A DNA stretch of 64,000 nucleotides from Membranipora membranacea. Lineage: Eukaryota; Bryozoa; Gymnolaemata; Cheilostomatida; Membraniporidae. Both the position numbers and the translations under genes were made by a program. The DNA is taken from contig OU612070.1 in assembly GCA_914767715.1 (NCBI GenBank), positions 13,905,501 to 13,969,500 on the forward strand, in the 5' to 3' direction. The notes under the pieces were generated by a model. The model saw only the letters and a list, made by a program, of their open reading frames with translations, was not told the DNA's origin and searched no databases. Shown one piece after another: positions 40,598-63,848 of the stretch (its first letter is position 1; the number at the start of each line of letters is the position of its first letter).

Positions 40598-43500
40598 TTA
40601 TGGAGCCGACACAATTGACTGCGCTGTTGTTGACATTGTAGTGGTTCTTGTCGTAGATATCATTTGAGTAGTTGTACTTGTTGATGATGTTGTTGTTACT
40701 AGACTACCGTAAACCTCTACTTCATTGAAGCAGTACATCCCTGTCCTAGTATTTCTGATCATTACTTTCACATAACGTCCGACGGCTTGATCCTCACAAC
40801 TGAACAGTTCAGGTCTATATGATGGTGCACCTTCTCTATGAGTGAAGTATGCTAAGTTTGAGTCTAATCCCTCTATGGTTTCAGCAACAAGGAAAATGAC
40901 CGTATTCATCTGACTTTCTGTAACAAAATTATAATATAACATTTAGTATTTTTGGTAATCTATAATACATTCAGGAAAAAGGTAAAGAATTAAAATAATA
41001 AAAAATAATTGACTAACTTACAAATATTTGTCATGTACGTGTCAAAGCTTTCACTTATAATATATAATAATATACAATGAAATTATAAAATACAATTTAT
41101 GATATAATGTATAATATATAATGAGTAAGTACTTGTATATCGTCAGATAAGATTGTGATGTAGTTAAATGTCCTGTACTAACCTAGTTTAAGTGCTCAAA
41201 CGGTGCAAGATGCTGGTAGAGGCATTTCATTATCAACCACTTTCTCCCCTCCGTTTAAGGATATAAACATAAAGTGCCGTAGTTATGGCCACCATGTAAG
41301 AGAGGATAACTCAAAACATTTCGTAAAAATTGAGATGGAGCTAGATAAAAAGACTGGTCATACAAGAGAAAAAGATAGTTATTTATAGTTATGATAGTTA
41401 TTTATAGGCAATCAAGACATATTGTTTCATATCCATCATACCAATATGCTTACAAGTTCCCAGGATTGCTTGATTTTAACTTGGAATGTCAAAATATTTT
41501 CCAGCCTAATTCCTTGAAAAATTTGGTAGGGGTGAGAAATTTACTACAGTTTACTACAGTGTACTGTTTTTTGGCAGGTGATGTCTAGCCAGCCAAAGTT
41601 TTTGTTGTGAAGTTAATAAGTCAGAGTTAAATCTGAATTTTACTTCCACATCCTTCTCTGTTTGTTGTTAAATAATATATGTTTTGAAACTAAGATGTCT
41701 TATGAACACATCAAGAAAATATCTGAGGCAGCCTTCTCATATTCACCTAAAGAACAGCAACTTCAGACTGTCAGCTCGTATTTTGCTGAGGGGAAAGATA
41801 CTATTCTTGTTGCCCCCACTGGTTTTGGTAAATCATTCGTATACCAAGTGGCTCCATTTCTTTATGACAGCAAATATACATTACCTAGTGTTAATAGGAC
41901 TAGAAGGACAAACACTATCAGAGAACAAACATTTGGCTCTAATGTCACTACTGATGTTTCTTCACTCTCTGGATTTACATCTCTGAGTGAGAGCAGGGAG
42001 AATGGTGAGAGTCAGTTATCTGAAACTGTTCAGCCTACTACAGGTGGATCTACTAGCACTTCTGCTGATACCTCTAATACCATTGAAGATGATGCTAAGC
42101 CCACTGACACAAGTACGCCAACCCGACCAGAGAGAGGAGATATCCCTAGTGACAATGTGGACAACCTTTCAGGTCTGCTGGCAGAGACCACGCTATCCGC
42201 CACCACCACATCTTCTACTATAATGCCTACAGCCTCTTGTGTAAGTGGTTAAGCTGAGTGATACTTGGTTGATGGGTGTAGGTTGTTCATTAATTTATTA
42301 TTCAGCGATCATGAAACTAGTTTGAAAGCTAATCATTTCCTGTCAGCAACATTGCTGTGACTACGTCTACTGCCTAAGCAAAGGCAGACAATTTTGTTTT
42401 ATTGTTGCAATTTAATATGTCTAAATGTAACAAATCCCATGTGTCAGTGTGGAAGCCCAGACATATATCACAATATTAGCAGCGGCTATTTTTTAACATT
42501 TACAAGCAGGAACGTCATCAACTACCTACAGGCCTTCTCATCAGCTTTCAAGAAATTACAAGAACTTGGTGTCCTGATGTTGTTGTGTCAACGGATAAAT
42601 AATATTTATAACTATTTTTTTTGTATGAATTAAGTGTATGCAAGGAGTAAACCAACTTCAAATGATTTGTTGCATTTAAGTTTGGAAATTTTTAATTTAA
42701 TCCTCTTTATGTTACAGCCTGTCATACAGATTTTGGTCATCATGCCGCTCATTGCCATGATCACTGATGGGCTAGCCAATCTCAAAAGGGTCCTACCAAT
42801 GGTCAGCGCCATCCACTTGACAGCTGCCACACTCAGTGAAGGAAAAGTAGCTTCCATTCTCTTCGCCAGTCCTGAGACATTGCTCAGCCAGTGCGGTCGA
42901 AAGTTTATCGAGGAGGTTGCCAACATTAAGGCTGTCTTTGTAGATGAATTTCACATTGTCTCCTCATGGTGAGTAAACTTACTACCTATAAAGTTGATTG
43001 TAATTGGGAATTGACAAATGTTTTGATGACTTGCTTTGGAACCAGTACCATTCTACCTGTTTCATAGTTAGCTTATGCTGATAACAGGCCTGTCACTTGT
43101 CTTAAAAAGTATCGATGGTACAACCGGGGTCAATAGGGCAAGCTTTTGCTTGAGCATCAAAAAAGGTCTAAATAGCTGGTTGAATCACAAAAAGCAAAAA
43201 TTCAATACACAATATTTATGTTCCTTGTCATATTTAGGTTGTTACCAATTACCTTACACATATTACATCTCACTTTGCAATAAATGCCAGATTGGGATAA
43301 TAGTTTTTACAGCCCGTCTAGTTATATTGTTAAACAAAACTTGCAAACATGATACAAAGGTGTGTGGTAATAATATTGCTGCTATTTGGAACTTTGATAT
43401 TGGTATTAGAAACTCCAATAAACCTAGTTCTAACATTGTGTTATGTTCACTGCTGTACCAACTTCTTCCAACGAAGAATGTTAACAAATTGCTAGGCATG

Positions 43501-46500
43501 ATAACGTCAAACTGATGAAGTGATTATAATTATGTTTTTACTGTATGAAGAGGTAGCACTACTAATATATATTTGCACATTTCTTTTTGTTTCAGGGGTC
43601 TTTCCCACAGCCAAGCTACAGCCTTTCGAGAGTGTTATGGGCAGTTGGGTCAGCTGAGAGCTTACTTACCATCTAGTGTCCCATTCGTATGTCTTTCAGC
43701 AACTGCGCCACAACTTGTAGTAGACAGCGTTGTTACGTCCTTACATTTAGTGTCTCCCAAGATCATCAAAGTACAGATAAACAAATCTAATATCAGGTAT
43801 GGTATACAGGTTATATTGCACCTAACTAAGTGGTGACTAGTTAATTGAGCAAACATCATCCCTGATATAACCCATGTGCTACTCATCGGCAGATACTTTA
43901 GACCTGATTTGATCTCCCTCTAATAATCATAATGATGGCCGACCGCTGGTGGTATAAGGCAACCCGGACAGCACTTAAGACAAGTAAATATCAGCTAGAT
44001 TTTGGCTGCTTTAGGGTGAGAGTCTGTAGAGAGTTATCAAAGCAATCTCAAATATTAAAATTTCTCGCACAAGGACATTATTGAATGATGTGAGAAAACC
44101 ACAGGTCTAGTCTAGAGCATGTTATCTCCCCTGTTACCGATTAACACTAAAATATCTTTGCCTAGGCTACCTTGGACCAATACTGCTTTGTGATAATTTG
44201 GTGTAAGTAGAGCAGCCTGTCCTAGGTAAACCAGCACAGGGCTTCCTACTATACTGTTAGTAGATCATTGTATGGGTGTTAATCTGTCTCAGGGGAGATA
44301 ACATACTCTCGACCCTTCTAGACCCTGGGTTTTTGCACTTTCAAATCGTTAAAATCATTCAATAATGTCCTAGTAATAGCCTGTATAGTACAGCCCTAGA
44401 AGTCCTTGATGAAGATTAGGTCAACTATCTAGGCTACCTGTTACTATTGACTGAACTTGGGGCAGCATTTATTATTATCAGATAGAATGAGCATGCAGCT
44501 TATCATCCGATCAGTACACAGTTAGCAAATTATTTAAATGACGTTGCTCAATGCTCCATTTCAACATTCTTCACTCTCTTTTTTCCAGCTATCACCGGAT
44601 CCAAGTCAAGGGTTCTGTAGTAGAAGATTTCCAATGGCTTGTCACTCTACTGACCACAACTGTCGAAGAGAAACTTCCCCGCATTCTGATATTCTTCAGG
44701 AATGTCAATGTGCTCTCAGATGCTTACGCATATGCGACTGTCAAGTCAGGGCGACAGTTCGGTGACATCAACTCATGTATGGGGATGTTCCACCTGAATA
44801 CCCTACCTCAGCTCAAACAGAAAATATTAGCAGACCTTGGAGAAAAGGATGGCAGGAAAAAGATTGTCTTTTGCTCCAGTAGCCTCTCCATGGGTATGAA
44901 CTTAGCACAAATAGAGTATGTTGTGCATTATGGGCCTTCATTGACAGCTGAAGCTTTCTTCCAAGAAACTGGTCGAGCAGGGCGTGAGGTGGACCTTTTG
45001 TGTCACTCGATTCTGCTGACATATCCACGTATGCTATGTGGAGTCAAACCTGATAAGGTGATGAAAGACTATGCCAAGTCAGAGGGTTGTTTACGTAATA
45101 TTCTTTTATCCAAATTTAATACCACCAAACCTGACAATCAACTGCACTGCTGCATGAGATGCCATCCTGACACTCCTTGTACCATTCTGACATTATTACA
45201 TGATTCCTTCGAATCATCATTCACCGAAACATTTAGTGACAGCGATTCTGTTGCCTCAGTTGCAAGCATTGAGTCCCTGACCGATATGTAGCTTCTTTTA
45301 GAAGTTATACAGTATACACCAATCTTTCTATGTTCTAGTAAACATCATATTGATGTAAGCAATGAATTTTCACAGGTATCACATATCACTGGCTCAGGCA
45401 TATTTGTTTTTTTTCTGTAACAGACTATCATATATAGCATTATGTATTATGGTATCATCATGTGATATAACATTGTTGCATCCACAGTCAGCGTCACATT
45501 GTTTATACAAGCATCAGCTTTATAACTCTTAGCTTGTTTGATAGTTTACATATAATACATAATTTCTCGAAAACAGTCGTATATATTCTATGTGATTTAT
45601 GCATCAGAGTGTTTTATTTATAATAATATGTATAATAATATCAAGTGATATAACATTGTTGCATCCACAGTCAGCGTCACATTGTTTATACAAGCATCAT
45701 CTTTATAACTCTTAGCTTTGTTTGATAGATTACATATAATACAGGATTTCTCGAAATCAGTCGTAAATATTCTAGGTGATTTTTGTAACAGAGCGTTTTA
45801 TATATAATAAAATGTAAAATATAATGGTGTGATATGACATTGTTTATACAACAAACATCTTTGCTCGAAATCAGTAGCAAATTTGTGCTCAGTGCAATGA
45901 AAGAATAAAAGGCATCCAAATTTTAACCCCTGAGTAAACACAGTCTCTGAATGTATATTCATATTCATTAAATTGGGCCACCATTATCACCTTTAGTATC
46001 AATATCCATAGAAACATTGAGGTTTGGGAACAGAGCTATGATTTCAGAATCATCTACATATGATTGTTCTACCTGTGAAAATTGTAGGTAATAATGCCGG
46101 CATTGCACCTGTTGGATCCTTGATATGAGAAACTCCTTGAGTGATTTGCCGCTAATGCCAGAAGCTGGGTTATCAGATATGTTCACGAGTGCTGGTGAGT
46201 GAGTCTTCGCAGAGGTGTCGGAAGGCACTAGTAATTCCTCGGCGTTATACTTCCTCACCAGTCTCATAATGTCTGATTCCGAGAGCTCGCGCTTGGATAT
46301 ATTGGAATATATCTTGTATCCCATTTCCTGGTCAACATTTTTTTCGATCTTGGACCACACACCGCGCGCCCTTGATATCTTGGAGATGTGGTCCTCAGTG
46401 TACTTGCCTCTGTACGTCTTGAGTCTTGCCTTGAAAGCTCGGTTCTCATGCTCCAGCTGTGAGGCAAAAATAGTAAATTCAATTTATTGAATGGCAAAAA

Positions 46501-49500
46501 TAATCATCTGCAGGCAACATTGTGTAACAACTTAGGAACGCTCCGTTACAGGATATCATGTCACATGCTTTTGACCAGGTTTGAGGAATTTCAGTCTTTG
46601 ACTGTCATATATATTGAATACTGAGGACACCGCATACTATTCATACATTCAATTCCCTCACTATGTTGTGTCTGTTATAATAATCCTTTAGTGTAACTAT
46701 TTTTAGCAACCTTATACCCATCCCTCTTGGCGGACTAAATGTGACTTTTGACAAGTGACATTTGGTCTGGCAGGTTGGCATTAAGCTTTATGCGTTCATC
46801 CGAACAAGTTAGAGATCGCGACTAATTAAGCCAATGCCCATGCTGGCTATCCTGACGAAGTAGAGTTTCCCGTCACAGGTAGAAATTATGGAAAACAATA
46901 ACTAGTTACTATATCTAAAATAATGTAGAGACAGACAGTTCATGAAAGTTATCAGACATCAACTCACTGCTAGATCCAGAGGAATGTTCGTGTCAGGAAG
47001 ATTGTAAGAATTAAAAAACCTGTTCCACATTAGCCGGTCTCTTATGTGCTGAGGAAGCACCCTCATCTGAATTAGGGTTTCAGCTAAACCACAGCCATAC
47101 TTGTAGCACCCATTACCTTTAAACACGACATAGAAATACCTACAACAAAAAAGAAACAAAATTGAGCAATGCATTTCACAGTTACCAATTTCAGCACACC
47201 TTTGGATTGATATATTTATGATGTCGGTCAGTCAGTTCTTTGATTTCACTAAGCTGTGGTCTTGTCGCCTTGCAATCCTGCAGAACCCTAGAGGTGATAA
47301 GTATTCGAAAGAGGAAAAGTTCATCATTTCGCACACTCTTAAAATACCTACATTAAAGACATTAAAACTAACCCACCCTCTTAACTTTCAATAGACCTTT
47401 GCCAGCCGTTTGTGCTATAACTTTGCCTTGCATTATGAGGCAATCCATTGACACTTAGTGCTTCCCTGGTAATGTGAACAATCTGTCAACTACTATATAT
47501 GCAACAATAATCCTACTTGGGAGCGCAGTTCACAATAAGTACTTACTTGTAAAGGTGTATGACCTTTTCTCCATTGCCAAGCTGTATGGCACGGTTGTGT
47601 ATACTCCTCAATAGCCCAAATGTGATGACCTGCGCTGTGTAATTGTATACCGCATCATTCTGCTCGCTCTCTTGAATTGGGATGTTGTGATGCTTTTCCT
47701 GATGGTGCTTTCTCAGGTTGCTCTTTGTGGTGAATTTTTTACCGCAAGCAGGACATCTACAATTATAATTAGCCAAGATAAAATACAGTAACAGGGATAC
47801 ATGCAACCATTCAGAGTAAAAAGGAACTCAAGGATAAGTTGTGTAGGATTTCATGATGCATTTTTTCACTCACTCAAACTCAGCAGTAGGAAGAGACGCT
47901 GCATGTAAGCAGGAAAGTGTTTGCAAAAAAGCACCAATAATCCACCAGTGTCAGTTAAAAATATTCATGATTTATGCTGTAAAGCAATGTCTACCTTATC
48001 TTGTCAGATGCCTCCAAGTCTGGCATTGATAGATGTACAAACTTCTCAACGACCCTTTGGGCTGCCTTCTCAACCTCATCTGCGGATATATCATCCTGAG
48101 ACTTTTCTAAGGAGGTCAAACTAAGCTCCTTCATAGCAGCTATAAAGATAATAAACAAAATGATCAATTCACTACAACGTGCTTGATTGTAGACTTCATG
48201 GCCGGAAGAAAATTCTACGAGGTATAACCACCTCAATACTGATGCCACTTCTTTATGGAAACAGGTCAAAGCTCTCATTGGTTACATTTACCGGATAATT
48301 ATTACCATTGGAGGGCATACTTAACTGGCTGCTGGCTGACACATTGCTTTCTCTTAACAGCAAACGAAGACAGCAGCTGGATGACATCAGTGGAACGAAT
48401 ACTGTGATTATTTACCTATGCGCATGTAGGCATGAAAGACCTTGTCGAATAGCGCAGCACAGTCATAGTATCTGGATGAGGGATCCGCCTTGACATTTCT
48501 AGCATTGAGCAGGTCTTTTGCATGACTGAGAGTACCTGCTGAAGGCTGAGAATCTCCCTGAAAAAATTTCAGATCCAAATAAACAAATTGAGCACAACTA
48601 GAGCGTAAGTTAGTTTGCAAGAAATTCGCACGCCGCAGATACCTTTGTATCCACCCAATAAGCAAAGATAACTCGTGGATAATAAAGAAAACTGATGTAT
48701 ATTTGACTTAAATTTCTGATCTAGCAGTGGTCAGCTGGGAGAAGAACATTTCAATTTAGGCGGAACAAACCTTAAACAGCAGTTTGTATATTAGCTTGAG
48801 GAGGTTGAGTTGTACATGGAAGTCAGCCATTGACATAACCAATCCTTCCAGACGGTCAATACTGGTGGTGCCATCACACTGTGAGTTAATTGCCTGAAGG
48901 CCCCTCTCAAAAGTGAGGTAATCCCCTGCAACAAAAATGAGACATTTGAAAAAAATCATCCATTAGAAATGGCTATATTTAATTACTGATAAGGTCATTT
49001 CAGAGTTTGAGCAATAGAGAATTTTTTAGGCATTTCAAGTTGCAGCTCACTTGAAAATGTCATGTGTATTTGGGGAGTTAGGAACAACAATACCAAATTA
49101 TTGAGGTATGTAGATGGACTAGGTGGGAAGGTGTCTGCAAATGTAGATCAACACATCAGAAATACCTTGGTAGTAAAACTCACAGTATGAGATATTTATG
49201 AACACCTACCAATGCAGAGTTTATGCTTCAGGTTACCATCCTCACCCTCACATAGCAGGTGGTACTGTCTCAGACAGAAGAGTAAGTCTTCTTTCACATT
49301 CTCATTTTTCATAAAAACTCCTAGATTCACCTGTAATGATGAGAAAATCACACTATGATCTTAACATTGCAGATGTCAAATACTCTCTCGCTCTCTCTCT
49401 CTCTCTCTGATTTTCAATTGTTTTATCTTGGAGGTTAGTAAGGTGGGTGATAATGAACAAAACAGCGGACAATACAGAATCCTGTCATTCTCAAAGTTGT

Positions 49501-52500
49501 AGTAAAGTAATGATAAGATAAGATGAACATGACTTACATGATTTGTTTTTTGAGCCATTTGAGGGGTGTATTGATGGGTGTCATCTGGAAGTTGAAGTTC
49601 TATACACTTCAGGGCAGGAATCTTAGACCACACCTCAAGCACCATCCTGACCATCATTTTTTGGAGTTTTACATCATCAGCTGCAGTTGGAAACACATCT
49701 GCAGGTGAGATATTTTCCACTGGAATTTCCTGCCGTAGTCTGTAGATGGGGTCCGTCTTGATTCGCTCCTCAACAGCAATAGCTTGAACCATGTGATGCA
49801 TTGTGTTGCTTACATCAGCTTTCTCCCGACGTGGCCTGGTCATGATGTCTACATTGTCGAGTACAATCCCATAGTTTGCCAGTTCGGAGTCCCACTTGTT
49901 CAGCACAACATCGTATCGCTTTGCTAGCTGCTTTAGCTTTCCACTGACAGTCTGGTGAACTACAGCATCACCCAGCCTCGCCATCCGGTCAAGACCAACA
50001 TCTGTGATTCCACAGTTGGAGATCATCAAGCCATAGTATGCCTTCATAGCAGTTAGTCGCTTGCTGTATACCCCGAGACACTTTCCAATCACAGTTGTTA
50101 TCCGTGGGGTGTGATCTTGAAGGATTTTCTTGCTGGCCTTCTCTTGATTCTTCCGTATACATGCAGCTGAGACTACACTAGTAAGTGTAGGGACAAACTC
50201 TTGAAACTCGTCCCAACATTTCTGAAAAGATTGTACATTAAATGTTTATCTTTACAAAAAAACTGGGCATGACGTGACTCAGAAGAGAAGGACACATAGC
50301 CACAATTTTCGCACTTGTAGTTTTAAGAAGGAATTAATCATATAACTTCAGTCTGTTGTGACATCCGCTAGTAGTCAAGCTAATGAAGCTTTAGCAACAA
50401 GCATACTGGCCTGCAGTGTAGTGGAAATTTAAACACTATAAGTCCCGAAACTCTAATGTATCGTGAGCATACCTGTAGACTGAACTTCTCAAGTGCAGGA
50501 GCAGATGAGTCAATCAGCTGACTATCAGTCTTCTTTGAGTAGCTCATTACCTCTGCCTTGATTACATTGCAGGTATACTCAATAGCTGCAGTATCTAGGT
50601 TGCTGTTTCCTTTCACCACCTTTCTCAGGTCTGCCGACTTTTTTCTTAGCTCTCTGATCATGAAAGCCTCCTCTAAGGTTACATCCTAGGTAATAAAAAT
50701 CATGGTTCAACAGATGCATCATGGATGATGGTATGATCTCTACAGCATATATTCCTAACATCTGCCAAGCTAGGATTAATTTTAATATTAATGGCGTTAC
50801 ACCCAAACTGAAACTCTGTGTTATACATTTTGTTATGACCATTAGCGTATGAGTACATGGTTAAGAATTGACTTGATCATGGTAAATACCTAGCTTGCAT
50901 ATCCACAACAAAATAATGTTATTTTCACAGCAAAGTGTATTCAGAACTAGAATTGTGTGTACAACAAGAATGGAATTGCAAAATTAAAAGATAGTTAGCA
51001 GCACCATGGTGAAGACCCCCCTTCCCCTCTATAGCCAACCGTATGTTGTAGAACATTACAAAAATAACATTCCATGCATTTATCTAAGACGATAACAAAT
51101 AATAGCAGGTATACCTCCTAAACTGAAAATGAATAGCAAAGTATTGTCCCAACTCACCATGGCATATTTTCCGTCTTTCAGTATAACTTGGTTTGACTTT
51201 GCCGGTGTGGATGAGGTACTAGTGATACTAAAAGTCTTCTGTTTTGAAAGCTCTGGTGTTGGTGTTGGTATTGGTGTTGGTATTGCGGATTGAGGTTGTG
51301 TTAGAAAAAATGAGCTCAAACGCGCTGTTGGCACAGTGATTGGCTTTTTTGGCTCAGCGATCGGCTTCTTTGGCTCAGCGATCGGCTTCTTTGGCTCAGC
51401 GATCGGCTTCTTTGGCTCAGTTTTGACTTTGAAATATGTCGGTGATCGTTTAAGTCTACCTGATGCGACATTCCCGCCAAATGATTGTAATTCATAATGT
51501 TTATAGCGTATTGGGATCCTGCTTGGGCGTGGTGACCCTCTACTAGGCGGCGATGTCTGCGATTTTCTGTATTTTGTCTCCGATGATGAGGGAACTGCTC
51601 TGTTTGTAGTATCTTCTGAGCTACTCAACAAACGTTTCCTTACACTCAAACTTGGAATTCTGCTTGGGCGTGGTGACCCTCTACTAGGCGGCGATGTCTG
51701 TGCTGTTGATGACTGTCCAGCAGCCGATGTTGTGGTACCCACCTCTTTGAGGTTCACATACATATCTTTCCTAATAAATATAGAAGATTTCCTGTGATAT
51801 AAGTACACCCAGAAGGTATGAATTGTTATAAGCTCTCATAACAGTGCATTTACACAAGTGATTAATGTTTAGTTTTCTGGGGTCAAATCTTAGCTAGATT
51901 ACAAAATAAAGTCTTAACCAAACAACAAACAGCAGGATTAGCAATAGCGAAAATTTAGACACCATGGTTCAGTAACCAAATCAGAGTCTACATACTAGCC
52001 ATCTATTTTTGTTTCCCAAGACCAGTGATAGCGACAGCATTTTCAATCTTCAACAGTGAAAATATGATTTGCAGCCAGAAATCAACCTAGTATTTGATCA
52101 GTGAAATCATAGGCTTATCAAACAAAAGGCTATGAAGTAACGAATTTTGTATCTGTATGAATGGACAGTCAATCATCAACTCTATTCAACAGTAGGGATC
52201 ATGTAACTTAGCAGTGAATTTCATTAGCCAAGTGTTATTGACAATAATCAAAGGGTGTCAACAAACCATCCCTCATTTAGCAAAAATTGAACTGAGGCCA
52301 CATTTACTCAAAGTTTATTAGCCTCTAATTTTTCTCTTGGTGTAAGTCAGCAAGAGCTCCACTGTTTTTTGACCATAAAACTCAGTCTGTGATCTCCCTC
52401 AGAACAAACACATGATTGATGTACAGGCAGCTGATTAAGGTGCCTTCTTGTGGATAAAATTAGAATATTTATGTCATGCTAAATTCGATCAGGGAGGATT

Positions 52501-55500
52501 CTCCCTGCTCCAATCGATAAGCACCTTGATTGTATGATGAGATAGATCATAACAAACAAAATCCACAGCCAGCCCTTAATGGTGTTTGGGATGGCAATCG
52601 CGGTCGTAGGTCAGATATCTAGATTGACTGCTTCATTCTTTTAGTAATCTGCTTGTAAACTTTCACCTAAGACACTCCTTCAAAACCCAGTCAATTCAAT
52701 TTTTAAAACCCAAAATTGCTCTCTAGGCTTTAGCTTCACACATTGACTTGAAGCCCTCGGTGTTCAGCATAGCTGCACAGGATTGTAAATGGTAGATGGC
52801 AGGGTCACAATTGAAAGCTAGAAATCCCCCCTGTCACAACCTGAAACCAATTGAGTGACTGCCAACTATTTTGCTAATGGATCACTTCTAAGGAAAATTG
52901 AAACCATTAGATGGTAAACAGTCGATATCTATTTAGCCCTACAGAACGTTATAGGCTACGTAATTTTAAATTTTCCATGAGTAGGTCAATTGCAGCAAAA
53001 ATAAAGGAAGGAAAGATTGACAGTCAGCGATGACAATAATTGCATGGTCAAAAGAACTTACATTTTAACTCCGCTCTTGTGCATGTTTTTCCCAAATGCC
53101 TTGGAAATAGCCCTCCCTATCAACGAGGCAGTAGCTCTTATATCAAACTCTGTCCTTATCACCTCCTTCACCCTGGCCTTAGTTGTGTTGATCCCCTTGA
53201 ATCGTGTGAATCTTGATCTTAAGAAGTCCTGTATAATAAAAAAAATCACTCGTCAACAGCAACATATACGCGGTTGATACCAGAACACTTATACCAAGTC
53301 ATTGCTTATACAACTTAAATTGTATTAGTTGCATTGGAAGATTTCAAAATTTGGGATTGGTAAAATTCTCTATTGAAGAGTACATAGGACCAGTGGAAAT
53401 GAAGGACAACACAATGTAATTAAAAGTAAACAATGAGTTGACTGGATGAAAAGGAATAGTTTATTAGACCATCATAACAAAAGAAACATGAAAATCACCA
53501 TCCTACTCAGATTTACTGGGCACAACACAATATGGCTATTCTTATAGAACAACCTTCGTATTATATTTTGCATCCCTGAAGCGTAGAGCGTATCCAATTG
53601 AGTGACTTGAATGCAGATGCTAGTCCAGTGGCTACTAGTGGGTACTAGCGCGATAAATACACGCTCGTCTGCAGTAAGCTTTATGTTGGTACCAGCATAG
53701 CCTACAGATTATTCCCTAAGTTGTGTTGTGACCCTAGTAGCCCTATGGCATGAGGCTGCTTACCGACATATCTTGTACTTTCTGCTGTTTAAAGTGAGGG
53801 CTGTACTCTACTGAGCATAGGTCAGTGCTGCGGGGCTGAAAACCTGAAATTCAAAATTGTTTGAGGTTGTTTAAGTTGTAGCATGCATTGCTGGATATCG
53901 TGTATGTATCGGATCAAGAAGTTTGGCAACGAATCATTTTATTTTTTTTACAGCCTTTTGGTTGTATATCAAACATGCCTCATGGTTTTGCTGGCGACCT
54001 GACCTGATGCCACAAATTTAAACAATTTGTCAAACTTTTAATTGATACTGATAAGACACTTGACAACTTACACCAGCAGGTTGTTGCATAACCACACAGG
54101 AGATAATAATAATTCGATAATTCATGAATAGGCTAATTAAATTTGCAGTTCAAGAAAACATCCCAATACAATGTAAACCTTTTTTGTTCCTCTACAGCCT
54201 GATAATGGATGACTGATAAGCCGAATGCCAACTTAAACCAAGCCAGGCTGCTTGATTATTATCGTTTTTACAAGGCAACTGTTAAATGACATAAAAATGA
54301 AATCTAGTCAGCGGGCAGACCATGCATTTGGAGTTAGGAGTACTCCTTGGTTCAAGAATTCATCTCTTTGTGATACAAAGTACTAATTGGTCAAGCCTTC
54401 CCCAACTTGCACAAACACTATCATGAAGGACTCTGCAGTTGTGTTTAAATGGTACAACTCAACTGTATGAGAACAAGGAGTTGACTCCTTGACGGAAATA
54501 CATCTACTATTTATTCAACTCAAAGTCAATTATACAGTGCAGCAATTAACTCCCTCTTCCTCGAGGGTGTTCATTGAGTGCAGTGACCAGCCAGTGAGTA
54601 AGTTCCTACTCACTCGAATCAGCTAGTCTTGCAGCCTCCTTCATCCTTGACTGTGTCATTGTAGTTTCAGACTCTGCTGTTGACTCTGCTGTTGGCTTTG
54701 CTGTTGACTCTGCCATTTTTCTTTTATCAGTTAATAAAGAAGAATGTATGTGCAGGCTGATTTCAGATTTATTCCTGACATAGATAGAAAGTTTGTCAAC
54801 TTGAATGATGGCTGGCTAAACAACACCTAATCTGTTGTACACCTCACGTGTTCACTACAGTGCTATTTAATAAAAGGTCATAAGGTCATACGGATCACCC
54901 GTATTATTAATAGTAATGACTTTAAGTCCTCAGGCTATTATTTGTAAACACATTTAATTTATTAGTTGTCTCACCACAAAGAAGGTGGCCATAACTGCGG
55001 CACTTTATGTTTATATCCTTAAACGGAGGGGAGAAAGTGGTTGATAATGAAATGCCTCTACCAGCATCTTGCACCGTTTGAGCACTTAAACTAGTACTAA
55101 CCATATTCTTGAGGTGGCCAGTATCTCATCATCTCAACAGAATATAAGTCTCCAAGATCAACAATAACATAAGGATACTCCTATAAATACAAAAGTAGTA
55201 CAATATCATCATGGTTTTCTTTTTCATATTCACAGTTCAACATGTGCAAATTAATATTCAAGTTGCAAAGACGTTGTCCCAAATATCTGTAGCATCTATC
55301 ATATGGAAGAAAGGTGTGCGAGATCAATTTTAGATATAATCTAGGCTAAATTGATTGTGACAAATTAACTTCCCTCACTTGTCACTTCATTCGAAATTTA
55401 CTGAACATAAGAAAAACCTACAACAATCTAGCGGTGTAAAAAGTAATATGGGCTAACTTACAGCTTGAGAACAGAACTTGCCGAATGTTTAGAAGGGATC

Positions 55501-58500
55501 AGCTGTAGCATTACTGAACTTTTGGACCAATCAAAGATGAGAAATTGTTCCCAGTAATCATACATAAATTGCCATAATGCTTGTCCAGGATCAGAATGTT
55601 CCCCTAATCCATGAATTTGTACAGCAATCTAGAGACGTAATATGGGTTAACTTACAGCTTGAGAACAGAACATGGATGATGTACTATCAGTACCTCCATC
55701 TATAACATTCTCCGCCGCTGTCCCATTAGAAGACATAGAATGTCCTACTACAGTTCTCCCTGAAATAGAGTTGGTATCGAATGTGAGATACAACTTGATT
55801 TTTTTTTGTTGATTTCAGAGGTCAACAAGTTACCTAAAATAGAATTCCTTTTATTATCTATACACTTTAAAGAAAACCTCTATAAATAAATATATAATAA
55901 AAGTATACAGTTTGGCTGAAGTGAATGTAGTCCCATAACCAAATATTTAGAAACATTACCTACCTCTGTTTCCGTGTAATCACATTAAGCTATTTACAAA
56001 ATTCAACTTATTTTGACTGCTGAGCCAAAGTACTTGATTTATAACACACCTCTGGCCAGATCAGATCCTAGTGATGTTGCATTATGGCTGACAGAACATC
56101 CACGCTGAGGCTCTGTTGGTCTGGGAGTGGTTGGTGTTGTTGATGGTCCAGTGTACGGTAATTCACCATAAATCTCAACCTCATTGAAGCAAAGTGACGT
56201 GGTAGTATTACTAGCCATCATAACTCGTACATAACGACCTCTCTTAGCTCGGCGACAGGAAAACACTTCTGGTCTCAACCATGGATCTCCTCGCCGGAAA
56301 TTGAATACAGAGTCCGCATTGTTGAGACTTTCCAGAGTATCAGAGATTGAGAATGCTATATTCCTTGTCTGGTGTCCTGTAGAAAAAAGCAGAAACTATA
56401 ATATGATGTATCGTTTAATGCGAAACAAGGAAATGGGGAACCAAGGTTTGGTCAATAATTGAAAATAAGCACAAATCAATAAAAATGCTAAAACAATCAA
56501 ATATATATTATAAATAAATAAATTTCAAATGTATTGCTGTCTTTTCCAAATATCTGTGAGAGATATTATTACCCTGAATCATTGAGAAATGGAAATATCT
56601 CGGCAACAAACAAATACCTTACCATAATCATGAATTGTGTCTCTTGCCCAAAATCTGATAACATTAACCATGTAGCTTTGTCCAAGATCGACAGTCACAT
56701 ATGGGAAAGTCTGAAATAAATGATGATAGGTATGAACTGAACTGTATGTATTCAATATTGCAGTCAAGCGTAACAATTATCCATTTCATACAGTATATAA
56801 CAAAGATCAGTTTTCAATGACACTATATATGATTATAACTTGATAGGAGTTAAACTACTGCTGCCACTCATGCAAATTTGTGCTTATTGAATTCTGCATA
56901 GCTCCAAGATAATTAATTGAGACTTAAATCTCATAATTGTCACCTAATGGACAAATAATTTGCACAAACTGATCTTCAAAATCAGGGCATGAAATCTACG
57001 GCGCCAGCTTATGACGTGTACAGTGTGCACTAGTAAGACGGTAACTATGTCACCTGATGCTGTAGATAATTAATTTCATACCCTAATTTTGACGATCAGT
57101 TTGTGCAAATTATTTGCTCATTAGGTGAGCTACACAGAATTTTATAAGCACACATTTGGCTGTGTGGCAGCAGTGGTTTAAGGTATTAAAGTTATTACAA
57201 CAACAGATCAAACTCACAGCAGTGGTACAGAAATAAGAGGAATCACTTTCTGTATCTCCATCAATAATATCCTCTACTGTATAACTGTACTGATAACTGA
57301 AACCTGTGTGCTCAGCAATAGTTTTACCTGTAAGTATAGTAAGTAAGTAAGTAAGTAAAATAATTCCACTTATAGTGTATGCCATGAAAGTATATCCGTC
57401 ATCACGTGCAAAAAGAATCTATCTGTAATTTTTTTAACACTGATTCCTTTTGTTATGCAAATTAAGCTATTTTTCAGCTTACTAACGCTATGAAAAAGTC
57501 ACTGAATGTCATTAAAATGATTACTCTCATAGTGTGTGCCATGTAAGAAACCCCATGTTATGTTATGTTTTTTGTTATTCGTTCTTTTTTTTGACGGGTC
57601 ATCCATACAACTGAACAAACATAGGTATGTCTTCTACAGTAGAAAACTTCAAGGGATATTAGGTAGTCTCATTTGACATACCAACAGCGAGATTATCACC
57701 ATAATTCCAGTTAGCTGAGTAGACAGTACAGCTAACATCTGGTACGGGAGCTGCAGTTACAGCACCTGTTGATGGCACTCCTGTAAAACATGTCAGATTA
57801 CAAACTTCTATGACTTTAAACAAGGAAACAGGGTGGTTCTGTTTGTCAATAAACAACTAATCAGCCAATATTTTTGTTATAAACCCTTTCCGAGTTGGTT
57901 CTATGACGCAAAGATGGGAATGCACATTAAGTCTAAATATCAGGATTTGACAGTCATGCTGAATCCTCATGTTGTTTAAGTGCCTTTGATGTCTGTGTTA
58001 TCCAATTCTGTAATGGTTTAACTGCGCACTATGAGAGAATGAGCTTTACACACCATAAACTTGTAGTTCAGCGAAACAGAAGAAGCCATCAGTATTATCT
58101 TTGACCATACGAGCCCTGATATATCTACCACGTAATGGAACATCTCTAGTAAAAACCTCCTCACAAGATGGAGGAAAATCAGGTCTATAGAAAAAAAGTG
58201 ATGGGTCTGTACCCAGCCAATCAGTAGGTTCCATAGCTCTGACATCATCAGCAACATGAATCTCAACAGACCGCGCCCGAATATCTCTATCTGTAGATTA
58301 TAAAGTAATTTGAGAGGTAATAGGAATATAGAGATATAGAGATATAGAAAAACAACTTCTCTATGTTACAGCAGAGTCTTGAAGAGTGATTCACGTCAAA
58401 AAAATCATTAGGAAGACACACACACAACCACACTTGCAGTATAAATGGGATTTTACACGACTTACCAATAGGACAGGTAGTAGTCCAAAATACTACAGTA

Positions 58501-60076
58501 CTGATGTCATAGGACTCTCCCAAATCAATAGTTACGTACGGCATCCTCTAAAAGTAGATCATTAATGGATTCATCATGATTATAAATCTACAGCCTGAAG
58601 TAATGTCAAAGCACACACTTTCATTGGTAATACATACAGCCTTACTAGTGTACTCGATGGGCGGACAGATATCTAAGGCAACTACACTTAAGTCAATTTA
58701 TCTACTACATGTTAACAGTAACTTACCTCCTGAGAGCAGAAATTAACGTAACCGTCAGCTTCTATAGTGATTCCATCAACTACATTTTCTGGTGCATACT
58801 GTATACCTGACTGGGAACTAATGTACGCTTCGCTAGCATCATAAACCGTTTTGTCTGTAATTAGGAAGAGATTAATATGATCATGAATAATTTTTAGGGT
58901 CATTTAAAATAATTAATGACGCTATATCAGAGCGCTGCGTCACAGCACCACGTCGCAGCACCACGTCGCAGCACCACGTCGCAGCACCACGTCGCAGCAC
59001 CACGTCGCAGCACCACTTCACAGCACCACTTCACAGCACTGTGTCACTAAACATTGTCACAGCTGTAAACTTATAAATATTATGTTTATGGTCACAGCAC
59101 TACAAAATGCTTGTTGCTCAGGGAGTCTCATCACTTGCCGCAATTTTGTGGTTGAGACTTGAACAACTATTACTCTAAGACAGCCTGTTTGATGAAAGTT
59201 TTTCTCGTTTCTTCAGATGGCGAGTTAGAAGAGTGATGAATGGCACAGAGTTCTTAATTTCCGTGTTTCAATCTAGAACAACTTACTCAGAGCAATATTT
59301 TCACCATATGGATTCAGTGTCGTTTCAGGTATTGTAGTATTTGTTGTAGGTGGTGTGGTTGTTATGGCTGCAGAAGCATTCACAATTTCTGCAATTTAAA
59401 CACAGTAGGTAGTAAGTCCCAATATAAACCGGCCTCAGCATGTATAGTCTGGTCCCAGACCATTCTACACCCAGAGCCTTGCAAAGACTAGGTTCTCTTT
59501 ATTTTCAAAACTATGCTCATTCCATGATTAAGACATTTTATTGTAAAAGAACATGGAATTGTATGATTCTTTAGAGAAGACAACAGTTTTGGAAAGTCAA
59601 GCTTACTTATAAATGTGGCAAATCAAAGTAACTACCATCAGACGGAACAGAGGATTCAACATACCATCGGCATCGTAGACTTCAATCTCGGTGAAACAGA
59701 AGAAGTTTGTCTCCTGCTGATACTTCATAACTTTTACATAACGACCTGATAGAGGATCAGATCTGATAAACTGTTCAGGCTGATCTCCAGTTTGACTTCC
59801 AGGTCGGTGATAGAAGAGAGAAGATTCTAAACTCAAACCTTCCAGAGTATCAGATACGTATATCCTCATATCATTTACCTGGGATGCTGAGATAGATACA
59901 GAAAACTTTAAATGATTAAATCCTATTTGGTTAGCAGTGTTTTCATGATATCAAATTATTCTAGAAGCATAGAAGTAATACTACGTCAAATCTTAATCAT
60001 TGGTTGCGCATATTTCCTCATATAATTTATTATGTTTATATTTATATATGTAAATAAGTTCATATAAATTTATGTA

Positions 60077-60113
<37 letters not shown>

Positions 60114-63100
60114 ATATTTATATGGTTCCACCAAGACATAGAACGTAAATTGACAAAGTTTGAGCACCCAACATATGGTGTTGTATCTAGTTGCTAAGAA
60201 TGATTATATACTCAGACTTACCAAAGTAGTTCCACATGACTATCGTGGTAATATTATAGGACAAGCCAAGGTCCAGAACCCAAAAAGGATCAACCTGAAA
60301 TAAGAAATACTTGCAATATGAGCTGCTCTCAACATTAAACAAACTTGTAAACCTTTCTACAGCCAAACCTACTGGAACAGTAATCTATTGAAACGTAAGG
60401 AGAAATCCAGACATCAATGGCTAAATGATAAGTCATTTTGAGTCAGAATAACATACTGTAATGGCCATACCTTTATACATGTGACGCGGCTTTTGTCTCA
60501 ATGAGAAGTTTGCAGCCTGCACAACATATGATGTCACTGATGGACTTATGGAATGAGATTGGGGTGAGTTAATGCTGCTGGGGCCAGCCATGAGAATCTT
60601 GCACTGGAGATGGCATGTGACAGTACTTGACACTGTGCATGTTGCTGAAAACATGTGTTGGGGTATGTGGATGACTGTTGGTTTTATCTATTGAGGTAAT
60701 CATCTGCCTACTCATGTTTCTCTTACTTACCGATCTTGAACAGAAGCTATCGGAGAGTGGAGCACCTTCTCCCAAACCATTCACTGCATTCTGAGGATGG
60801 TATGAACCATAAGGATCACTTGTGTTCACAACTGTCTTATCTGCATTGTAATAGAGACATACATATTAAACAGGGACAGTAAAACAAAAGTATGCAAATT
60901 TCTTACCTCAAGGATTAAACTTAAGCTTCTAAGTTTTTGTTAGCTGAGGTTGGTGGTAATGAAAAGTACAGAGTGTGAGTGAATTTTAGCTAGCTTTAAA
61001 GTTAGCTGCGAATATGTTATTTCTCATGGGTACCATAAAAACTACACCATTTATTATTATTATGTGTTTTTATTGAGGTTTTCATATATGTCAGTATGTT
61101 ATAAACAAAGATTGATTGATATATATTACGTTTTACTAAATGAAATGGTTTAAAAATCTCGATTCGCCGTATTAGGTCCTAGATTTTGGTTTAATTATTC
61201 TACCTCCTGACCAAAAGGCTCTATTGTGCATTTTGCAGGAATTGATGATTTTAGGATGAAAAATGAGGTGTTTTTGCCTATATAAACTTATAAGTAAATT
61301 GCTGTTTTCAAAAACACTAAGTAGCCTTTTATAAGTCTAGTGACAATTTTGCGAGAATTTTTGTTTGCAAGCTAATCATTGTTGATCATCATGGAAGTTA
61401 GATCACTGAAATCTATCAATTTTTACCAATTACACATAGTTTTTGATACCGACTTGAAGTCTATTTATAACCTTACCTTGAGCGATATTGTTACCGAGTA
61501 GAGGTCCAGCACGGCTTGTTGTTGTTGGAGCTTGAGTTGTGGTTCTTGTGGTCACAGCTTCCTCGCCTATGGAGATGAAATTGAAAGTCAACTCAAATGA
61601 CCAAGTGATTGTTGGAGATAAATATGACCAATAATAAAAACTGATTTAATTTTCAAACTATTAATCAAACAAAATTTATATTTGTAACTTTGAATATTCA
61701 TGTCTTTTACAATGCATTCTTTTATGACCAGCGTAAAAGTTTGTTCTCCCTTCCAACCCAAAGAGAGATGGGCCCTTATTCGAAACCAAGCCATATGCTA
61801 ACAAAATCCATCGCATGCACACAACGGGTTGTAAGAAATAAACTATCTGAACTGAGCCACTTCAAACCTTCCGTTTGGTAGACTTCAATCTCAGTGAAAC
61901 AGAAGAAGTTTGTCTCCTGCTGATACTTCATAACTTTTACATAACGACCTGATAGAGGATCAGATCTGATAAACTGTTCAGGCTGATCTCCAGTTTGACT
62001 TCCGGGTCGATGATAGAAGAGAGAAGATTCTAAACTCAAACCTTCCAGAGTATCAGATACGTATATCCTTATATCATTTACCTGGGATGCTGTAAAATAT
62101 GAGAATTCTCATAATTATGTTTCATTTTACGTACGATGAAAAGACGGGTCTACACTGGTGATTAAAAAAAGATGAAAAAAGTAGCATCTTTCTTGCTTAG
62201 GTACATTAACTTAGACTGATTGCCTACAACCTTGCCATATCATAGCTCCACAATAATTATTGACATACCTGTCTTCTCAGATCCAAAAATTTAGTAGAGT
62301 TGTTTACCCACACATGTATCGCAGTATGGAATACAGTTTATGTGCTGATCCTGATATGATTGGCTGTTGGACAGCCAATCAGTGCCAACAAATTGGTTTT
62401 ACTCAATATAGACAAAATAGGGAATAGTTGAGGTCTTACCAAAGTAGTTCCACATGACGACTGTCACAACAGGATAAGATGCTCCCAAATCGACCACCCA
62501 GAAAGGATCAACCTGAAAGAAAAGACAAAATAAATCAGTCATTAGCATGCAGATTATTGAATCTGCGTATACATTTTAGCGCACAATATAAATCAACACC
62601 AAAAAATAGACCAGGAAAAGCTAATAATCAGCCGCTAAAAAATTTGTTTATCCATAAGATAGTTTTGTTGATGTTCTGCTGTTACAATGTAAAGAAAAAG
62701 AAGCAACAAAGCAAAAGTATCATAGATAACAGATTTAAACATTTAACCAATGAACTTCAGTTCATTGATTTAACTAACCGTCTTGGAGCAAAAACTGTTT
62801 GTCAGAGGGGCATCTTGTCCCAGGCCATCCACTGGATTTTCAGGATAGTAAGATCCATACATATCACTGTTTCCCACTACTGATTTCCCTAGAGCCAGGT
62901 TGGAATTGATATCTGGTGTTGTAGCAGTCCATGTGGTTGTTGTTATGGTGCTAGATGTTGTTGTTAATGTGATACTAGATGTTGTAGCTGATGTGGGTGT
63001 TGTAGATATTGTAGCTGACGTGGGCATTGTAGATGTTGTAGCTGATGCGGGTATTGTAGATGTTGATGTTGATGTGGGTGTTGTAGATGTTGATCGCGCT

Positions 63101-63848
63101 GTACTAGCTGATATGGCTGTAGCTAAAGTTCCATATATCTCCACCTCGTTGAAACACATATGTTGAGAGGAGGAGGTACCATTATTAGCCATGATCACAC
63201 GGACATATCTTCCTCTTACTGCCTGCCTACATGAGAATATCTCAGGGCGTAGTTTAGGTGTCCCTCTCCGGAAATTAAACACTGAGTTAGGATCATCTAA
63301 GCCTTCTAGGCTGTCAGAAATGAAGAATGCTATGTTCTTCACCTGATGGCCTGAAACGTATAGATGGTTGGAAATGAAGAGCCATGGTTCCTCAAGATAA
63401 TGTCAATTTTGAAGCTCAGAGTTTTAAGAAACTCTCTCAGCTAGATTTAGCAGGTAGAGTTTGCATTTAGAAATGGCAGATAGACTTGGCAGGTATACAC
63501 AGCGGCTTGACGTAGCATGTAAAGGGACATATATATTATATATATATATATCTATCTTATCTGCTGATCAAGTCATTTGTACATATGAGACCATGCATAA
63601 CAAAAATAAATTTGTAAAATAAATCAAGTGAATTTGATAAAAAATACCATTGTCAAAAGGGCTGTTCTTTTGAATGTTTTGTTAACAGTGATTGTAACAG
63701 TTCAGTAACAGTTCATCATCATATTATTATCAATAAATGATTTTCACGCAAATCACTTACCATAATCATGTAGTGTATCTCTTGCCCATAACTTTATCAC
63801 ATTGATCATATAACTCTGCTCCAAATCAATTGTCACATGCGGGAAAAC
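40598..63848 (-). CDS. multi-domain fucolectin-type (FTP, F5/8C-like) lectin, 5' end outside window
   Basis: Nineteen phase-consistent exons (minus): 63848-63761, 63350-62779, 62512-62440, 62089-61868, 61566-61477, 60840-60731, 60294-60222, 59886-59665, 59388-59287, 58854-58727, 58547-58466, 58290-58054, 57780-57682, 57327-57218, 56710-56623, 56376-56050, 55759-55656, 55180-55102, 40917-40598; 1041 residues here. At least six domains are present, the first cut by the window edge. Each has an N-terminal exon (NLALGK-type start, then NPVDGLG and FCS), a short exon with the V-D-L-G strand (PFWVVDLG, FPYVTVDLG) and a C-terminal exon ending GRYVKVM..CFTEIEVY. These are hallmarks of eel-fucolectin/tachylectin-4/pentraxin-1 domains, secreted fucose-binding defence lectins. 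Thr/Ser/Pro linkers, likely O-glycosylated, join domains. The last intron (14.2 kb) holds the transposon at 41184-55093. The terminal exon ends in a Thr-rich tail; a missed further exon is possible. Confidence 0.88.
41175..41183. repeat. left 9 bp target-site duplication of the large transposon
   Basis: GTACTAACC, identical to 55094-55102. If the terminal repeat were taken to start two bases differently, a 7 bp duplication (TACTAAC) would result; 9 bp is the longest consistent reading. Confidence 0.85.
41184..41293 (+). repeat. left terminal inverted repeat
   Basis: Starts TAGTTTAAGTGCTCAAACGG and pairs with 55093-54984 on the opposite strand, with a single T/C mismatch in 110 bp. Similarity stops abruptly after ATGGCCACC. 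Confidence 0.93.
41695..45291 (+). CDS. RecQ-like superfamily II DNA helicase of the transposon
   Basis: Four exons: 41695-42240, 42718-42968, 43596-43796, 44589-45291; phases agree, giving 566 aa. All helicase motifs are visible: motif I APTGFGKS (residues 40-47), motif Ia region VIMPLIAMITD, motif II DEFH (258-261), motif III LSATAP (299-304), a motif IV-like ILIFFRN, motif V region KIVFCSSSLSMGMN and motif VI QETGRAGR (458-465). A Cys cluster after motif VI (GCLRNIL, then CCMRCHPDTPC) matches the RecQ zinc-binding layout. There is no winged-helix (RQC) or HRDC domain. A Ser/Thr-rich insertion of about 120 residues between motifs I and Ia is odd for RecQ. The start Met (41695) has a good context; the longer open frame upstream lacks an ATG. 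It probably unwinds element ends or aids replication-linked transposition (inference). Confidence 0.88.
44073..44370. mobile_element. foldback MITE inside the helicase gene intron
   Basis: Ends GGACATTATTGAATGAT and its inverted copy ATCATTCAATAATGTCC; internal arms also pair (TGTTATCTCCCCTG against CAGGGGAGATAACA). About 300 bp, imperfect palindrome, no coding capacity. A young MITE within a host element shows nested insertion. Confidence 0.75.
45462..45880. repeat. 183 bp tandem duplication between the two transposon genes
   Basis: The sequence starting GTGATATAACATTGTT recurs at 45462 and 45645, with a shorter, more diverged third unit at 45828 (GTGATATGACATTGTT): period 183 bp, about 2.3 copies. 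It lies between the convergent stop codons and contains polyadenylation-type hexamers in both orientations, such as AATAAA at 45806-45811 and tttatt near 45616. Confidence 0.85.
45968..54716 (-). CDS. candidate DDE transposase with internal C2H2 finger (DUF6589-like)
   Basis: Fourteen exons (minus): 54716-54614, 53843-53764, 53228-53062, 51770-51158, 50685-50473, 50221-49538, 49330-49210, 48925-48771, 48557-48416, 48139-47995, 47756-47547, 47287-47198, 47139-46968, 46456-45968; phases agree, giving 1127 aa. Residues 117-320 are low-complexity, with SPPSRGSPRPSRIP twice and four EPKKPI units. The conserved core has YGIVLDNVDI (D514), CIGDYLTFER (D662), RLEG..ADFHVQLNLLK, a classical C2H2 finger CPACGKKFTTKSNLRKHHQEKH split out of the core (C809, C812, H825, H830), and IPLDLALEHENR (E967). 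The GDxLTxER and RLEG/DFH pattern matches my memory of DUF6589 proteins; D514, D662 and E967 are my proposed catalytic triad. The exon 12 donor (after 47198) is non-consensus and was chosen by frame. The element's position between inverted repeats supports a transposase role. Confidence 0.8.
51341..51436 (-). repeat. 24 bp coding repeat in the transposase gene
   Basis: Four near-identical 24 bp units encode EPKKPIAE-type octapeptides in exon 4 of the candidate transposase. They are in frame and in a basic, disordered part of the protein. Confidence 0.85.
52566..52612. mobile_element. end fragment of the hAT-like MITE family
   Basis: About 46 bp matching the termini of the 4497-5317 MITE: CACAGCCAGCCCTTAA, then GTTTGGGATGGC and a diverged GCGGTCGTAGG. 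There is no second arm, so it is a solo end or deletion remnant, inside an intron of the transposase gene. Confidence 0.7.
54717..54983 (-). promoter_or_regulatory. probable promoter region of the candidate transposase
   Basis: This stretch of about 270 bp between the right terminal repeat and the transposase start codon should contain the promoter and 5' UTR. No box can be assigned with confidence. Confidence 0.35.
54984..55093 (-). repeat. right terminal inverted repeat
   Basis: Inverted copy of 41184-41293. On the minus strand it begins TAGTTTAAGTGC at 55093, directly abutting the duplicated target. Confidence 0.93.
55094..55102. repeat. right target-site duplication, overlapping a splice donor
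   Basis: GTACTAACC; on the minus strand this is GGTTAGTAC, that is, the last base of the lectin exon ending at 55102 followed by its donor GTTAGT. Confidence 0.85.
55455..55500 (-). pseudogene. decayed partial copy of a lectin exon end
   Basis: The minus strand shows GTTCTGTTCTCAAGCT followed by GTAAGTTAGCCC, nearly the same as the 3' end and donor of the lectin exon at 55759-55656. The exon body beyond that is missing and replaced by a family A repeat, so this looks like a duplicated and truncated exon tail. Confidence 0.6.
55512..55610 (+). repeat. dispersed repeat family A, copy 2
   Basis: Plus-strand relative of 14152-14250 (see that entry), lying next to the truncated lectin exon remnant in the intron between the exons at 55759-55656 and 55180-55102. 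Confidence 0.7.
56940..57128. mobile_element. short MITE with about 55 bp inverted ends
   Basis: The left end TCACCTAATGGACAAATAAT pairs with the inverted right end ATTATTTGCTCATTAGGTGA, and pairing continues through TTTGCACAAACTGATC. The centre of about 80 bp is unique and GC-richer. It is in a lectin gene intron; target duplication not resolved. Confidence 0.75.
58934..59045. repeat. 13 bp minisatellite, consensus AGCACCACGTCGC
   Basis: About eight direct tandem units, GC-rich in an AT-rich intron; the right-hand units shift to CACTTCAC. It is in the lectin intron between the exons at 59388-59287 and 58854-58727. Confidence 0.9.
60074..60112. repeat. (TA)n microsatellite
   Basis: About 40 bp of alternating TA with a few interruptions, in a lectin intron. 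A second short TA run lies at 63530-63551. Confidence 0.9.

Follow-up and report, generated by a model that had tools for sequence, protein, structure and literature searches.

Whether the 13,910 bp lying at positions 41184-55093 of an analysed stretch of Membranipora membranacea chromosome 6 constitute a mobile unit and, if so, of what kind, is the question raised by this locus, in which a helicase gene on the plus strand and a gene for a DUF6589 protein on the minus strand converge between inverted ends. The stretch (the window) comprises 64,000 nucleotides of contig 6 (13905501-13969500), and its numbering is used throughout unless a contig prefix is given. A first-pass annotation had proposed a complete, young DNA transposon, and the evidence presented below makes it highly probable that an autonomous DNA transposon of the AcademH type was recently inserted here, in which the DUF6589 protein most likely serves as the transposase and the helicase most likely unwinds DNA.

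Termini, target sites and copies of the element

Comparison of the two ends confirmed the previously annotated 110-bp inverted repeats with a single mismatch (109 of 110 bases identical, similarity ending beyond base 110), and likewise the 9-bp target duplication, GTACTAACC, which is exact and abuts the element on both sides. The terminal features, all assigned by ends comparison, are as follows.

41175-41183, no strand: left target-site duplication GTACTAACC
41184-41293, plus strand: left terminal inverted repeat, 110 bp, beginning TAGTTTAAGTG
54984-55093, minus strand: right terminal inverted repeat, 110 bp, with one mismatch relative to the left
55094-55102, no strand: right target-site duplication GTACTAACC

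The genome searched consisted of 339,339,785 bases in 18 contigs; for the assembly of this species, an excerpt of PMC10290214 gives eleven chromosomes and 21 scaffolds totalling 339,374,674 bp (longest scaffold 41,072,641, N50 29,963,023, N90 24,422,204). Other copies sharing the termini were found, the absence of which had been named at the outset as grounds for abandoning the transposon. A second full-length copy, at C7:2196140-2209984, exhibited 57 mismatches in 13,843 aligned bases (0.4% substitutions) together with seven insertions or deletions, and was flanked by a different 9-bp duplication, CCTTCAATA. A third, near-complete copy on C10 starts at element position 5 (C10:11048084), its match stopping at 13,260 of 13,910, and other partial copies were located on C10 at 1.20 Mb, C8, C3 and C6.

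When the flanks of the C7 copy were joined, the resultant 500 bases were found whole at both C2:37519738-37520237 and C2:2852671-2853170, each 99.2% identical, with one CCTTCAATA at the junction and the element absent. Because these two paralogous sites have a single CCTTCAATA and no element, the C7 copy was inserted precisely into a repeat, with duplication of 9 bp. The repeat in question has more diverged matches elsewhere in the genome. An equivalent search of the genome for a paralogous empty site of the window copy returned only the flanks themselves. The second full-length copy, the C7 empty sites and the 9-bp duplications bear out the description of the element as a complete, young DNA transposon.

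Searches of the genome with each end, in which 40 candidates of 893 and 40 of 855 were scored, provided a sample of short copies at 39 listed places, a sample that omits at least four others listed (C2:20708620, C2:2874706, C6:1047851 and C6:14364626). Both ends were present in 35 of the 39, and one end in the remaining 4. Of the two-ended short copies, 26/35 span 525-542 bp; an exact 9-bp duplication likewise flanked 26/35, and a 9-bp duplication with one or two mismatches a further 3/35. In a control for which the right boundary was moved by 12-29 bases, exact 9-bp duplications were recorded in 0/630 cases. Since the second full-length copy has the same ends with a different duplication, and since 26/35 compares with 0/630, the association of ends and duplication exceeds chance. 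Two of the 26 copies with an exact duplication have the same flank as well as the same duplication, and these probably go back to a single insertion multiplied by duplication. Copies of 520-545 bp, 26 in number, differed from their majority sequence by a median of 3.9% (range 1.5-9.2%), a divergence which suggests that on average the short copies are older than the full-length pair. Full-length and short copies of the element are thus dispersed through the genome.

The two genes and their products

The helicase gene consists of four exons with GT/AG splice sites and an open frame encoding 566 amino acids.

41695-42240, plus strand: helicase exon 1, motif I APTGFGKS (gene model and Pfam scan)
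42718-42968, plus strand: helicase exon 2, motif II DEFH (gene model and Pfam scan)
43596-43796, plus strand: helicase exon 3 (gene model)
44589-45291, plus strand: helicase exon 4, Helicase_C, motif VI QETGRAGR, sub-threshold RecQ zinc-binding match (gene model and Pfam scan)

Two Pfam domains, DEAD (E 2e-13) and Helicase_C (E 2.3e-9), scored above the cut-off, and the RecQ zinc-binding domain PF16124 (E 0.015) reached 16.4 bits, below its cut-off of 25. The nearest solved structures include WRN, bacterial RecQ, BLM and Q5, and the designation of the product as a RecQ-like helicase is supported. Among the best 120 of 491 relatives, RecQ-like proteins of Argopecten irradians and Montipora foliosa exhibited 28-31% identity over 42-61% of the query.

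For the minus-strand gene, an initial model derived from splice signals and codon use was extended and then corrected against two homologues; the final model comprises 13 exons and 1,085 amino acids with no internal stop. In exons 1-4 it depends on the splicing and codon patterns, homologues lending little support or none.

54614-54716, minus strand: transposase exon 1, start codon at 54716, no homologue support (gene model)
53764-53843, minus strand: transposase exon 2, no homologue support (gene model)
53062-53228, minus strand: transposase exon 3, no homologue support (gene model)
51158-51770, minus strand: transposase exon 4, little homologue support (gene model)
50473-50685, minus strand: transposase exon 5 (gene model)
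49538-50221, minus strand: transposase exon 6, LDNVD motif, candidate first D at D514 or D517 (gene model and alignment)
49246-49330, minus strand: transposase exon 7 (gene model)
48771-48925, minus strand: transposase exon 8, candidate second D at D650 or D683 (gene model and alignment)
48416-48557, minus strand: transposase exon 9 (gene model)
47995-48139, minus strand: transposase exon 10 (gene model)
47547-47756, minus strand: transposase exon 11, C2H2 zinc finger inside the core (gene model)
46968-47139, minus strand: transposase exon 12 (gene model and homologue alignment)
45968-46456, minus strand: transposase exon 13 (last), LEHENR motif, candidate catalytic E925 (gene model and alignment)

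A 14-exon version was rejected: it contained a short exon, 47198-47287, without counterpart in the two aligned homologues, and 13 exons are preferred because direct joining of the exons on either side preserves the reading frame and recovers the sequence shared with the homologues. The annotated pair of convergent genes of 4 and 14 exons without stops retains its convergence, its four helicase exons and its open frames, the count for the second gene being probably 13 rather than 14.

Pfam DUF6589 was matched, with an E-value of 3.2e-31, by a preceding draft of the transposase model. Residues 340-1010 of the 14-exon version, used as a query, identified two relatives at 25-26% identity, from Asterias amurensis and Diadema setosum, and the starfish protein deployed in turn returned nine proteins including itself, the eight that were named all being from echinoderms. 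Over aligned positions, the DUF6589 proteins of Asterias, Diadema, Strongylocentrotus and Lytechinus are 22-27% identical to that of the element; these echinoderm relatives carry the name uncharacterized protein. Fifteen D, E, H or C positions were invariant in ten aligned sequences, including D514, D517, D650, D683 and E925, and it may be that D514 or D517, D650 or D683, and E925 form an aspartate-aspartate-glutamate (DDE) triad. On the strength of this alignment the protein is likely to be a DDE-type transposase, as had been put forward. No match was found when a phage collection was searched with a 109-residue piece of the DUF6589 core, and a literature search for DUF6589 as a word found no paper.

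The copies were also compared gene by gene. The helicase exons of the C7 and C10 sisters are unchanged in length and contain a single stop. For the helicase, the window copy differs from that on C7 by 3 synonymous and 3 non-synonymous changes (ratio 0.31) and from that on C10 by 10 and 6 (ratio 0.18); for transposase exons 2-13, the corresponding values were 5 and 6 (ratio 0.34) relative to C7, and 6.5 and 14.5 (ratio 0.64) relative to C10. With so few changes, these ratios hint weakly at selection on both proteins.

Gene pairing across the genome and the setting of the element

A DUF6589 search of the genome gave 19 matches, which resolved into 15 loci, and a helicase search gave 80 matches from 77 of 159 candidates scored, corresponding to at least 38 loci. 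At nine of the 15 DUF6589 loci a helicase locus lies no more than 4.1 kb away, every one of these pairs being arranged tail to tail; the share of the genome situated within 20 kb of one of the at least 38 helicase loci does not exceed 0.45%. The two genes thus recur together at unrelated sites, which is not the pattern of conserved single-copy host genes that the first-pass annotation had named as the alternative outcome. The window family accounts for four of the nine pairs. Among the other five, a second family is represented by C7:14936970 and C6:11960774, each of about 10 kb and 98.9% identical to one another over most of their length; in the 10 kb compared, their DNA gave no match with that of the window element. 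If its ends are taken as TAGACT...AGTCTA, the duplication is 10 bp on C7 and 9 bp on C6, the repeats extending a few bases past these lengths since neighbouring letters agree. The pairing of the two genes is accordingly a repeated one.

Certain helicase loci were found to be distributed in other ways. The interval C7 18.88-24.98 Mb (about 6 Mb) contains 13 of the at least 38 loci; three of these are 90-98% alike over pieces longer than 600 bases and gave no window-transposase match in the 4.5-5 kb compared, and a helicase-bearing repeat is amplified in this one region. Within it, C7:19194001-19204000 is a degenerate array that descends from helicase exon 4, its pieces being 76-85% identical to the element. 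A domesticated helicase at this array (C7 19.18-19.20 Mb) was considered and rejected: 10 kb of the approximately 20 kb consists of diverged repeats, and most matches contain stops. Three further helicase loci, C2:21018485, C3:21299589 and C4:7537918, have a common match pattern and are 48% identical to the window helicase, with no DUF6589 match nearby in the genome search; they perhaps belong to another family with a transposase too diverged.

In the window itself, minus-strand stretches flank the element at 40598-40942 and 56039-56395, and a repeated motif, recognised by eye, is common to these and to the stretches 59603-59950, 61776-62108 and 62770-63402 on the same strand. A Pfam scan of four of the five recorded no match at E 0.01; they may be fucolectin-like. 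The element is likely to sit in an intron of a repeated-domain gene. At 3037-3408 on the minus strand there is an open stretch with a glycosyl hydrolase family 18 match (E 3.7e-10).

Proposed mode of movement and relation to known transposons

A number of observations weigh against an intact and autonomous transposon with DUF6589 as its transposase. Among the three near-complete copies, both genes are open only in that of the window: the C7 copy carries a one-base frameshift in transposase exon 6, and the C10 copy lacks the right end, has a shortened transposase exon 1 and a lengthened last exon, and as aligned has one acceptor that is not AG. If the damaged exon 1 is counted, the ratio of non-synonymous to synonymous substitution rates for the transposase relative to C10 is 1.14. 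Of the two-ended short copies, 6/35 are without a 9-bp duplication, two of these six having an eroded end, and 6/15 DUF6589 loci lie more than 20 kb from any helicase match, 77 of 159 helicase candidates having been scored. The case for a DDE transposase derives from invariant residues and not from fold: a structure model of the Asterias amurensis DUF6589 protein, built from 9 sequences, had a mean predicted local distance difference test (pLDDT) of 50.3 and a predicted template modelling score (pTM) of 0.34, lending no support to an RNase H-like fold, and of the 117 solved-structure matches to the DUF6589 alignment, the 60 listed all fell on the zinc-finger stretch.

The mode of movement that we would propose begins with recognition of the inverted ends by the DUF6589 protein, most likely a DDE-type transposase, which would cut at the TAG...CTA termini. 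The cut ends would then be joined to target DNA with a 9-bp stagger, from which host repair would produce the 9-bp duplication. The RecQ-like helicase would most likely unwind DNA, either at the ends or in the intermediate formed by joining, and the short copies, comprising little more than ends, would presumably have been moved in trans. Both the catalytic function of DUF6589 and the part assigned to the helicase are thus ones that we infer. A bolder proposal, which we regard as doubtful, is that DUF6589, interrupted by a C2H2 finger, forms the core of the transposase in transposons that carry helicases, and that the tail-to-tail helicase remodels the synaptic complex, thereby setting the long stagger of 9-10 bp and perhaps allowing movement to be replicative instead of cut-and-paste throughout.

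The locus is a well-preserved example, a helicase-carrying transposon that is nearly pristine and in which both genes remain open, and its near-identical sister with empty sites, together with the non-autonomous derivatives, makes the part played by the helicase in transposition testable. DUF6589, a Pfam family of unknown function, would gain a probable function, and the uncharacterized echinoderm DUF6589 proteins may be read as transposon-derived.

AcademH, a lineage of the Academ superfamily, reportedly consists of helicase-encoding DNA transposons of animals and fungi, to go by the title of an article said to be that of Kojima (2020, Mob DNA 11:15). According to an excerpt of PMC10045372, its target duplications are of 9 or 10 bp, those of the sister lineage AcademX are of 3 or 4 bp, and these lengths are related to the encoded helicase (AcademH) or nuclease (AcademX). 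The proposed assignment to AcademH agrees with that excerpt in both gene content and duplication length: a helicase is encoded beside the transposase in the window element and in the second family, and the duplication is of 9 bp in both full-length copies and 26/35 short ones, and of 10 and 9 bp in the second family. Terminal inverted repeats, also looked for as an AcademH trait, are present, with 109/110 bp identical. A literature search that left out Kojima 2020 and Repbase found no bryozoan AcademH in print.

That the element represents a separate, undescribed superfamily outside Academ, converged on a helicase and 9-10 bp duplications, gains something from the fact that AcademH was compared by description only and that DUF6589 was not found in the literature searched, but is improbable given that the two features stated for AcademH in the excerpt, a helicase and a duplication length of 9 or 10 bp, both agree. 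Still less credible is a Kolobok element with a RecQ helicase. From the part of PMC9587614 available, KolobokH carries such a helicase, the rhodophyte Kolobok-1_CCri has a helicase in the complementary strand, and another lineage, KolobokP, is reported from M. membranacea itself; KolobokH and Kolobok-1_CCri, DDD/E transposons with a RecQ helicase, thus resemble the window element with its RecQ-like helicase and likely DDE transposase. However, Kolobok duplicates TTAA according to the same source, and TTAA duplications were not seen in the window element or its copies, in which the duplications are of 9 bp and varied sequence (26 exact of 35); moreover, that source reports KolobokH only from fungi, and the transposase core matches DUF6589, Kolobok having been judged by description and not by sequence. 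The chance location of two host genes between repeats, with no mobile unit, could appeal to the resemblance of the helicase core to host RecQ/WRN helicases and to the many genomic helicase loci without a DUF6589 match, but is to all intents eliminated by recurrence of the whole unit, with both genes, at an unrelated site that has empty paralogues.

Within the Academ superfamily, membership of AcademX was ruled out by the 9-bp duplications, which differ from the 3 or 4 bp given for that lineage in the excerpt of PMC10045372, and by the Pfam scan of both element proteins, in which no nuclease domain, the AcademX trait, was detected. The element of M. membranacea is accordingly of a kind of transposon already known, to which the main addition made here is the link between DUF6589 and helicase-carrying transposons.

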